From IMG/VR virus record IMGVR_UViG_3300031774_000203, positions 1 through 20,579 of that record: a DNA stretch of 20,579 nt. The stretch is one strand, 5' to 3'. Origin of the DNA: a virus. Below are positions 17,537-19,796 of this stretch, one piece after another (positions within the stretch are counted from its first letter, which is position 1; each line of letters begins with the position of its first letter). The position numbers were made by a program, and so were the translations under genes. The notes under the pieces are model-generated. The model was not told the origin of the DNA. It saw only the letters and a list, made by a program, of their open reading frames with translations, and did not search any database.

Positions 17537-17844
17537 TTTACATCCTTTCTTGGTATTACTTGATATGCACCCTTGTTATATGCTGGTGCAACTGTGAACT
17601 TCTTAGACTCTTCTTGTTTCCACGACTTGTCTTCTTGAGGTGAATATCCTGTACCTGTTCCATACGATGGATATTTCTTCCTATGTTCTTCTATTTCTTT
17701 TTGTCTATCCAAAACATGTTGTGGTGTTTTGAGGGATGAGTATGACATAGTATGACACTTCTTCTTAGTTTTTAAACTCTTAGTCTTCCTTTTACGACCT
17801 GTCATGTCATACCTAAGACTATTCCCTAAATTTATTGTACCCAT
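17521..17844 (-). CDS. Basic hypothetical protein (107 aa)
   Basis: A 107-aa basic protein: Lys/Arg-rich start (MTGRKRKTKSLKTKKK), a helical part (TPQHVLDRQKEIEEHRKKYP), then a low-complexity Gly/Tyr stretch and APAYNKGAYQVIPRKDVKWI. An internal ATG at residue 14 or 33 could be the real start; the ATG at 17844 is kept because it overlaps the upstream gene by 13 bases in a way typical here. No family recognised. Confidence 0.6.
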   Translation of the reverse strand: MGTINLGNSLRYDMTGRKRKTKSLKTKKKCHTMSYSSLKTPQHVLDRQKEIEEHRKKYPSYGTGTGYSPQEDKSWKQEESKKFTVAPAYNKGAYQVIPRKDVKWIGK

Positions 17845-18167
17845 GCTATTGCAAGATTCCTTATTAAAAATAAAAGACCAACACCATTCAATAGAATTAA
17901 TGCTCTATCCTTCCATATAATTGCAACCCATAACCAAAGAGTCACTCCAATAGTAGAAAGCATTAAGTCCCACATCTGAAACTCTGGAACTCCTCTTAAT
18001 GCCATTGCAGCTAATACAAATACAGATGCAACCCACTTAAGATACCAGTCAAAGGTATACTTTGGTGTTGCAGATTTAAATATCCTTGTAGAGTTTTCTA
18101 ACTCTTGTTTAGAAAAAGTTGTATCAAGTGCTTTCTTATACAATCTTTTAAATGGATTCAAACTCAT
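17832..18167 (-). CDS. Three-helix membrane protein (111 aa)
   Basis: A 111-aa membrane protein with a basic, polar N-terminal 35 residues and three hydrophobic helices: about 42-58 (YLKWVASVFVLAAMAL), 66-85 (WDLMLSTIGVTLWLWVAIIW) and 88-109. The charged turn WKDRAL lies between the last two. I recall similar sequences in marine phages but no function. A holin-like or host-membrane role is possible. Its start overlaps the 53-aa gene stop as ATGA (18164-18167). Confidence 0.7.
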   Translation of the reverse strand: MSLNPFKRLYKKALDTTFSKQELENSTRIFKSATPKYTFDWYLKWVASVFVLAAMALRGVPEFQMWDLMLSTIGVTLWLWVAIIWKDRALILLNGVGLLFLIRNLAIAWVQ

Positions 18168-18325
18168 CTACCTTGTCCTCTGTACTTTTTATATGAACGC
18201 TTCTTCGATTTATTCATCGTAGACATACCTATTTTAACTCTACGACCTCTACCACCTTGTCCTTGTGATGAAGTCTTTCGTGACCCAACATGTGATGTTG
18301 AAAATGCTTTACTTCTTATTGCCAT
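18164..18325 (-). CDS. 53-aa very basic phage peptide ending KKYRGQGR
   Basis: ATG 18325 to TGA 18164-18166, with GGAG about 6-9 bases before the start. The peptide is dominated by Arg, Lys, Gly and Ser (GQGGRGRRVKIG, KKRSYKKYRGQGR). The ending is one I recall from a short protein found in many marine T4-like phages. It is likely to bind nucleic acid. An ATGA overlap couples it to the membrane protein. The leader contains the candidate structured RNA at 18358-18453. Confidence 0.75.
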   Translation of the reverse strand: MAIRSKAFSTSHVGSRKTSSQGQGGRGRRVKIGMSTMNKSKKRSYKKYRGQGR

Positions 18326-18357
18326 TATTCTCCTGTTCTATCTCTCTTTAAAAAGGT

Positions 18358-18453
18358 GAAGAGACTACGATGATGGGAAAGGAGAGAGTAAACCCTATCA
18401 TCAGCACCTTTAGGAATTAATCCAATATACAACTGCTATGTTGTAGTCTCTTC
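18358..18453 (-). ncRNA. Candidate structured RNA with a four-way junction
   Basis: In the 135-bp gap, GAAGAGACTAC (5' arm) and GTAGTCTCTTC (3' arm) close an 11-bp stem. Inside, on the - strand, are TACAAC/GTTGTA, TTGGA/TCC(T)AA and GATGAT(A)GGG/CCCATCATC, making a cloverleaf-like fold. The outer stem is followed by ACCTTTTT. The inner AAAGGTG (18405-18411) can instead pair with CACCTTT just after the closing stem (18352-18358), an alternative fold of riboswitch or attenuator type. It stands between two genes of the early operon. It is not a tRNA: no T-arm or anticodon fits. No known RNA family is recognised. Confidence 0.5.
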
Positions 18454-18460
18454 GTAACTG

Positions 18461-18625
18461 TTATATGCCTTGTGTCATGTGAGAATAACACTCACTGGTA
18501 GAACCCATTGGTTCTCCACAAACACATAAACCCTCATCTGATTGTGAATCAAGAGCTGCATCTACATGAGCTTGTTGTTCCTCAGTCAAGGTTTTGTAAT
18601 TGTTTATCATTTCTTGTAATGTCAT
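18461..18625 (-). CDS. Small Cys-rich protein with a promoter at its start codon (54 aa)
   Basis: ATG 18625 to TAA 18461-18463. The helical N-terminus (MTLQEMINNYKTLTEEQQAH) is followed by a possible zinc-binding end: C-x-C in GLCVCGEP and one more Cys in SECYSH, with a His. A TTG at 18661 could start a 66-aa version, but that TTG is part of a consensus -35 box. The promoter predicts transcription beginning at the A of ATG 18625, which would give a leaderless message. No family recognised. Confidence 0.65.
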   Translation of the reverse strand: MTLQEMINNYKTLTEEQQAHVDAALDSQSDEGLCVCGEPMGSTSECYSHMTQGI

Positions 18626-18631
18626 AATTCT

Positions 18632-18661
18632 ATTATACTTTAACTTGTACTCATCTGTCAA
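18632..18661 (-). promoter_or_regulatory. Perfect-consensus early promoter, GTAC-spacer class
   Basis: TTGACA (18656-18661), an 18-bp spacer GATGAGTACAAGTTAAAG, and TATAAT (18632-18637). The expected start is about 7 bases after the -10 box, at the ATG at 18625. It overlaps the end of the upstream gene. Confidence 0.75.
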
Positions 18662-18845
18662 GTTTTATAAATCTCCTTCTTGATTTAGAAAACAACTTAG
18701 AAGGTTTCTTGTAAAAGATTTCTTCCTTTGTTCCTGTTTTAATGTAACCTACATTCAGATTCTTTTCATTGAATATGTAAGTATGATTTGGGACATTGCA
18801 ACTGGAATCACTCCAGTCTGTTATCTCTTTTAAATATGTGTACAT
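18651..18845 (-). CDS. Hypothetical protein (64 aa)
   Basis: A 64-aa protein with a polar N-terminal half (MYTYLKEITDWSDSSCNV), a possible beta hairpin (HTYIFNEKNLNVGYIKTG) and a basic end (KLFSKSRRRFIKLDR). No family recognised. The start overlaps the zincin gene by 16 bases and the end overlaps the -35 box of the next promoter. Overlaps on both sides support it as a gene. Confidence 0.65.
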   Translation of the reverse strand: MYTYLKEITDWSDSSCNVPNHTYIFNEKNLNVGYIKTGTKEEIFYKKPSKLFSKSRRRFIKLDR

Positions 18846-19189
18846 AGTTTACTCACCTTTTCGTGTAATTCAAATTCTAATTTCTTTGCTTCTCGTTCTG
18901 ATGGATATTCACCATTAAGGAATTGTTTAACATGAATCATTTCATGTGCAAGGGTCTGATACATATCTTCTTGATTTCTTGTAAGTTCAATTACAATCCC
19001 ATCATCCAAGTTTCCATAACAACACCCTAACCAATCATGATAATCACTAGGGAACTTATTATAAACAACAACATCAATCAACCCATGCGTTATCTTTAGT
19101 TCATTACATGCAATATCAACATACTCTATAATTTGTTCTTCATCCTTGAGTCGACCACCACGAGGGCCTTCACAATAAATCACAATCAT
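18830..19189 (-). CDS. Zincin-type metallopeptidase-like protein (HExxH)
   Basis: A 119-aa protein with H82-E-M-I-H86 in YQTLAHEMIHVKQFLNGEYP, the zinc-binding helix of zincins, and a downstream acidic SEREAKKLEFEL helix that could supply the third ligand (E98 or E100). The strand before it (GIVIELTRNQ) fits the edge strand of a minimal zincin fold. Such short phage zincins have unknown targets. It starts just after the stop of the 123-aa gene (19191). It might process a host or phage protein early in infection, as it is downstream of an early promoter. Confidence 0.75.
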   Translation of the reverse strand: MIVIYCEGPRGGRLKDEEQIIEYVDIACNELKITHGLIDVVVYNKFPSDYHDWLGCCYGNLDDGIVIELTRNQEDMYQTLAHEMIHVKQFLNGEYPSEREAKKLEFELHEKVSKLCTHI

Positions 19190-19590: not shown

Positions 19591-19620
19591 AGTATATCAA
19601 AAAGTGTACCTATGTGTCAA
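19591..19620 (-). promoter_or_regulatory. Early promoter, GTAC-spacer class
   Basis: TTGACA (19615-19620), an 18-bp spacer CATAGGTACACTTTTTGA, and TATACT (19591-19596). The expected start near 19584 gives a leader of about 22 bases to ATG 19562. Confidence 0.78.
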
Positions 19621-19766: not shown

Positions 19767-19796
19767 AGTATATCAAAATAAGTACCTATGTGTCAA
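19767..19796 (-). promoter_or_regulatory. Early promoter, GTAC-spacer class
   Basis: TTGACA (19791-19796), an 18-bp spacer CATAGGTACTTATTTTGA, and TATACT (19767-19772). The expected start is near 19760. No gene follows before the terminator-like hairpin. Confidence 0.75.

Follow-up and report, generated by a model that had tools for sequence, protein, structure and literature searches.

The virus record studied here (20,579 bases; this whole stretch is called the window below) contains, between two minus-strand genes, an interval that raises the question of whether it encodes a regulatory RNA and, if so, how such an RNA would act. The folded part spans positions 18358-18453 and forms a 5′ leader when the minus strand is read. 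It is preceded by a 54-aa ORF and followed by a 53-aa basic ORF and then a DUF6552 membrane protein gene. The first-pass annotation had placed it in the leader of a basic peptide gene, and the 53-aa gene at 18164-18325 (minus strand) does lie downstream. The single-stranded DNA-binding protein of the record is nearest to the versions from Melnitz (57.7%) and HTVC008M (54.9%), two T4-like phages whose hosts are OM43 and SAR11 bacteria. The source phage is T4-like and related to SAR11 and OM43 phages. The features of the locus, all on the minus strand, are listed in the direction of transcription, each with the evidence for it.

18632..18661, minus strand: early promoter TTGACA-18-TATAAT (12/12 consensus positions)
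18461..18625, minus strand: upstream short ORF (uORF), 54 aa, CxCG...SHMTQG type (ATG 6 nt past the −10 box; stop 10 nt before P1)
18443..18453, minus strand: P1 5′ strand GAAGAGACUAC (two-sided changes in 9/11 pairs, 24 sequences)
18434..18437, minus strand: P2 5′ strand AGCA (C-G to U-A in 3/21)
18424..18433, minus strand: conserved internal-loop strand GUUGUAUAUU (columns mostly invariant)
18413..18423, minus strand: P2b hairpin GGA-UUAAU-UCC (alignment; long-type members add an extra covarying hairpin)
18407..18412, minus strand: conserved internal-loop strand UAAAGG (alignment)
18403..18406, minus strand: P2 3′ strand UGCU (covariation)
18393..18402, minus strand: P3 5′ strand GAUGAU-A-GGG, bulged (alignments)
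18378..18392, minus strand: near-invariant P3 loop UUUACUCUCUCCUUU (alignment; kept in 22 family members from a loop-free pattern)
18369..18377, minus strand: P3 3′ strand CCCAUCAUC (alignments)
18358..18368, minus strand: P1 3′ strand GUAGUCUCUUC (covariation)
18342..18346, minus strand: GAGAG, complementary to the P3 loop, proposed pseudoknot (18/18 distinct tails; 22/24 members)
18330..18334, minus strand: Shine-Dalgarno (SD) sequence AGGAG (sequence)
18164..18325, minus strand: 53-aa basic protein gene, PHROG 17967 (directly downstream in 25/28 records)
17832..18167, minus strand: DUF6552 three-helix membrane protein gene (constant downstream partner, 28/28 records)

Distribution and fold of the leader

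The element is present in 31 IMG/VR contigs beyond the window and in one MAG contig. Pattern scans yielded 27 of these contigs and the MAG contig, and uORF-led and relaxed scans added four further contigs with divergent copies. A pattern without the P3 loop gave 41 matches, 22 of them family members and 19 (L109-L127) chance matches within genes. A search with the basic protein retrieved 80 loci, 17 of which carry the element (one locus, L015, has only 66 nt of upstream sequence). All seven records scanned as a whole, one of them 146 kb long, contain a single copy. The MAG contig (L128), with the element at its end, belongs to the Synechococcus sp. CPC35 MAG and is probably a phage contig binned with it; together with L086 it carries a truncated copy, and both were excluded from the alignments. 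The element was absent from 50,697 phage records, and neither DNA search nor basic-protein search of the phage collection brought up a relative. The Melnitz locus and the loci of DUF6552 homologues in HTVC008M, Mosig and C48C1 gave no significant match to the model (best E 0.23).

Folded on its own, the minus strand of the interval is only marginally better than its shuffles (z −1.99; 7/200 shuffles as good), and the plus strand behaves similarly (z −1.86; 9/200). It is the comparative evidence that is decisive for the reality of the structure. Among 24 distinct sequences, aligned by fitting to the fold model and with P1 of one member (L187) slipped by one base, 99.6% of the pair cells are paired and 14 of 29 pairs show two-sided changes; none of 500 shuffles scored as high, and slid controls pair at 37-60%. 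When 21 distinct sequences were aligned with MAFFT, unfitted to the model, 98.6% of the cells were paired and 7 of 32 pairs had two-sided changes, with slid controls at 39-63%. Compensating changes occur in four of the five helices of the 24 sequences. Two members, L187 and L220, retain the fold with a wholly different P1 of 14 bp, in which GAGAAUUGCAUGUC/GACAUGCAAUUCUC and GAGGAUUGCAUGUC/GACAUGCAAUCCUC, differing from each other by an A-U to G-C change, replace GAAGAGACUAC/GUAGUCUCUUC. On the sense (minus) strand the alignment holds 28 G-U cells versus no A-C cells, and thus the RNA of this strand is the selected one.

According to these alignments, the predicted architecture is a three-way junction closed by P1. 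Its other arms are P2, with a small hairpin and an internal loop that is large and conserved, and P3, with a conserved loop of 15 nt. The 11-bp closing stem of the first-pass annotation (GAAGAGACUAC at 18453-18443 with GUAGUCUCUUC at 18368-18358, minus strand) is borne out by covariation. Of the three inner hairpins described there, the long P3 hairpin and the small GGA/UCC hairpin stand. The first, ACAAC/GUUGU, has to be given up: it shows zero covariation, loses a pair in 7 of 21 relatives and is superseded by P2 (AGCA/UGCU), in which C-G changes to U-A in 3 of 21.

Mean identity in the core reaches 89.5% (20 sequences); by comparison, the following ORF has 61.3% at its third codon positions, the tail 66.4% and the 158 nt upstream 57.8% (19 sequences). 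Coding does not explain this conservation, as the three frames are open through the core in 0, 2 and 8 of the 20 sequences and indels occur. ARAGORN detects no tRNA or tmRNA, and Rfam searches gave no match to known ribozyme models. The whole window has no match above gathering thresholds in Rfam 15, and relaxed searches with the window, L103 and L093 returned chance-level matches only. By comparative analysis, then, the structured leader is real, phage-specific and unmatched in the RNA family library. It has the conserved, covarying structured domain in a 5′ leader by which riboswitches are recognized; its predicted anatomy is riboswitch-like, that of a candidate.

The P3 loop and the downstream ribosome-binding site

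The P3 loop (UUUACUCUCUCCUU) is almost invariant. This statement rests on the 22/22 members obtained with the loop-free pattern and on the protein-led search, which brought in three members with altered loops (L186-L188); the other search patterns included the loop. Its segment CUCUCUCC is complementary to a GAGAG located just 5′ of the downstream ribosome-binding site. GAGAG occurs at −27 to −11 from the ATG in 18/18 distinct tails, within the otherwise fast-changing sequence 3′ of P1, whereas 121 SD-bearing control leaders taken from these contigs all lack it. Family-wide, 22 of 24 members have it. The two most divergent members lack it and carry GGAGU(A)AGAG, which pairs with the loop at −11.2 and −10.2 kcal/mol. 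Over positions −30 to −11, where most of the SD is left out, the loop-tail duplex has a mean energy of −9.6 kcal/mol compared with −4.4 kcal/mol in the control. The excess is smaller when the SD is included (−10.2 versus −7.3 kcal/mol, 103 control leaders), and four members (L082, L091, L093 and L101) are then unremarkable. Both sides of the pairing are nearly invariant and show no covariation; the tails of two of 24 members have changed and can still pair. Nested folding of single sequences does not show the pseudoknot, as by its nature it cannot. Pairing of the P3 loop with AAAGG of the P2 internal loop was also considered and rejected, as it has no covariation and is 84.8% paired, like its shuffles.

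Our main reading, with a probability of roughly 0.55, is that the leader represents a new phage cis-regulatory element that would control translation through a loop-tail pseudoknot. Such a translational pseudoknot is the best supported mechanism among those considered. The comparisons demonstrate conservation and covariation of the leader, its strand and position, and an invariant complementarity between loop and tail; the formation of the pseudoknot and its effect on translation are what we infer. A strong early promoter would produce an mRNA starting at or beside the ATG of the short uORF. 3′ of the uORF stop codon the RNA would fold into the three-way junction of P1, P2 and P3, and CUCUCUCC in the P3 loop would pair with the GAGAG that stands a few bases 5′ of the SD of the next cistron. 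By making the site where ribosomes land accessible or inaccessible, the pseudoknot could set translation of the basic protein/DUF6552 operon. The trigger could be a protein, a metabolite within the internal loop of P2, or the ribosome that ends translation of the uORF.

Gene context and competing readings

An early promoter with TTGACA and a TA...T −10 box lies upstream of the element in all 19 contigs with enough sequence (scores 10-12 of 12). Its near-perfect form is TTGACA-18-TAGAAT; the window has TATAAT. The recurrent promoter TTGACA(C/G)ATRGGTAC with an 18-nt spacer is seen in the window at 18632-18661, 19591-19620 and 19767-19796 (minus strand), and among such copies an ATG follows the −10 box by 6 nt only at the element operon. 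This exact spacing of the uORF ATG is found there in 19/19 contigs. The 25 matches that the promoter pattern has elsewhere in the same contigs all lack it; 15 of them have an ATG ORF at a distance of at least 22 nt and 10 none within 120 nt. With the usual spacing of the transcription start from the −10 box, the uORF mRNA would be leaderless. Judged by the promoter-ATG spacing, the uORF is thus probably leaderless. It belongs to either of two unrelated families, in both of which the stop codon lies 9-11 nt before P1 (19/19 tested contigs). The L187/L220 lineage has no leaderless uORF; its uORF has an ordinary SD, the gene order differs, and 8 nt separate the stop from P1 in L220.

Downstream, the basic gene is missing from one lineage (L094, L097 and L099) that has kept the leader, and in L187 and L220 the leader precedes a different small hydrophobic ORF. 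The structure model of the DUF6552 protein (pLDDT 82) gave no significant match in the PDB, where SemiSWEET chains recur at E values of about 1-4, and the match of the protein to Pfam MtN3_slv scores below the cut-off. This weak, non-significant resemblance to SemiSWEET transporters is suggestive only. A literature search on DUF6552 found no paper.

These arrangements bear on two other explanations. RNA binding is common among small, very basic proteins, and the basic gene comes first after the leader in 25/28 records. The leader might thus be a protein operator, at which the 53-aa protein or another phage protein represses its own operon in the manner of T4 gp32. We consider this unlikely: the leader persists without the basic gene and before a different ORF, and only 17 of the 80 relatives of the basic gene have it (with the 66 nt of L015 as above). 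Autoregulation that depends on the basic gene was rejected on these grounds. The leader could also serve as a bridge for ribosome coupling, whose fold would join the uORF stop to the next start for re-initiation or whose P1 would be opened by the terminating ribosome. The near-constant stop position despite two unrelated uORF families would fit, as would the leaderless start (19/19 here, 0/25 elsewhere) and the presence of the element in 12/12 loci of close relatives of the second uORF family. Dense gene packing alone, however, could set the stop position, the L187/L220 lineage departs from the pattern in both its SD and, in L220, its stop, and the element accompanies just 10 of the 34 relatives found for the first uORF family, so that this bridge, too, appears improbable.

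As the P3 loop resembles an anti-SD sequence and recurs on different stems in unrelated phages, some of them without a local GAGAG, it might bind other mRNAs through CUCUCUCC as part of a trans-acting anti-SD RNA or a processed sRNA. The matching local GAGAG kept in 22/24 members, the lack of a conserved terminator and the single copy, in one operon, in each of the seven scanned records make this very unlikely.

A further proposal came from the first-pass annotation, in which AAAGGUG pairs with CACCUUU, breaks the closing stem and thereby creates a riboswitch- or attenuator-like switch. Here, P1 followed by a U-run would terminate transcription and the alternative helix would prevent termination. 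The window indeed has ACCUUUUU after the closing stem, and the 7-bp complementarity exists in its sequence. The helix itself is not conserved: without any two-sided change, it is paired in 88.4% of cells compared with 88.9% in shuffles, and three individual pairs are lost, in 8, 6 and 3 of the 21 sequences. In 3 of 21, the C-G to U-A change that keeps P2 breaks the alternative pairing. Moreover, it overlaps P1 by one base and would hardly break it. A U-run of at least five follows P1 in 15 of 24 members and is absent from nine, and a scan of the window, L103 and L101, limited to short loops, gave no terminator. Neither a conserved U-run nor a conserved, mutually exclusive antiterminator pairing, as expected of an attenuator with an intrinsic terminator, was found. 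Because the alternative helix is not conserved and the U-run is missing in 9/24, a terminator/antiterminator switch is unsupported, and we regard attenuation as highly doubtful. A 3-bp remnant of the pairing, AGG with CYU, is kept in all 21 sequences and could coexist with P1 and P2; it may be a small tertiary contact.

Least probable of all is a conserved island at the DNA level, i.e. a recombination joint between shuffled genes, for although the element is where two unrelated families of upstream ORFs come together with several gene arrangements downstream, the excess of G-U over A-C cells points to the RNA of one strand and four of five helices show compensating changes.

Related loops and known regulatory RNAs

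A relaxed loop pattern matched 57 stretches, including unrelated phage contigs. De-duplication, in which the L194 coding group dropped out, left 14 distinct matches, three of them from the element family. The closing stem scores at least 6 in 7 of the 11 non-family matches compared with 0.5% of 182 cross-matched flank pairs. Several of these hairpins precede Cas4-like nuclease genes with an SD (AAGGAGAGC) complementary to the loop; the nearest named relatives of the nucleases are found in phages of Actinobacteria. A relative, L223, has a different loop (CCUCCUGUCC) and a different SD (GACAGGAG), which match each other as judged by eye. At the level of sequence, these cases support loop-to-SD pairing as a general phage device. 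DNA searches of the phage collection found no copy of the shared hairpin, with weak matches only.

Eight loci (L200, L201, L208, L211, L212, L215, L217 and L222) have a hairpin with the loop GGUUU(U)NNCUCUCUCCUUNCC before the Cas4-like gene, and in each the loop is complementary to the SD or to a preceding purine tract. In five others (L193, L195, L213, L207 and L221) the same loop sits on long GC-rich stems, with no GAGAG nearby by eye.

A wider reading, which we offer tentatively, would combine these observations into a riboswitch-like class that is new and confined to SAR11-type myophages. Three parts would act together in it: a leaderless uORF on which the ribosome terminates shortly 5′ of P1, a sensor formed by the three-way junction, and a P3 loop by which the ribosome-binding site is locked. 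The GGUUU..CUCUCUCCUU.CC hairpin loop would be a portable regulatory module that unrelated phages use as well.

The Cas4-like hairpins of the actinophage-like contigs resemble the leader in having the GGUUU..CUCUCUCCUU.CC loop and, ahead of the gene, a purine tract complementary to it; they differ in lacking such a three-way junction and in their stems, genes and probably hosts. In the preQ1-II and SAM-II translational riboswitches, a pseudoknot engages the ribosome-binding site. The leader proposed here would likewise have its pseudoknot at this site but has no covariance-model match. In the leader of T4 gene 32, a pseudoknot 67 nt upstream nucleates gp32 binding over the start site (PMC3014915). 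In both cases a pseudoknot in the 5′ leader would set how a T4-like phage mRNA is translated. Here the proposed pseudoknot strand lies 11-18 nt upstream of the ATG, the leader folds as a three-way junction, and the two genes are unrelated. The wcaG and manA motifs are described as riboswitch-like leader candidates of cyanophages with no known ligand there (PMC2864571). They are comparable as riboswitch-like leaders of marine T4-like phages; our element matches no Rfam model and the genes differ. A glutamine riboswitch, together with tmRNA, is reported for Melnitz/Mosig phages (PMC9004378). It, too, is a regulatory RNA, found in the nearest cultured relatives, but the element has no Rfam match and lies elsewhere in the genome.

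Among the papers retrieved by literature searches on pelagiphage riboswitches, leaders or small RNAs and phage structured RNAs, none describes the element by its title or abstract opening. Streamlined bacteria of the ocean rely on regulation by RNA. One pelagimyophage survey that used a scanner of known classes reported no riboswitches (PMC7029224). A covarying leader without a library match shows that scans for known classes can overlook regulatory RNAs specific to phages. With a size of about 130 nt, the compact element offers a handle on what such phages sense early in infection, and it lets one ask if leaderless uORF translation is wired to a downstream RNA switch.

Two minor observations concern neighbouring genes. 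In all eight Cas4-like loci the ORF is only 62 aa long, perhaps reflecting a frameshift site. In the window, positions 18830-19189 (minus strand) encode a small predicted metallopeptidase with the motif HEMIHVKQ and a SprT-like match below the Pfam cut-off.
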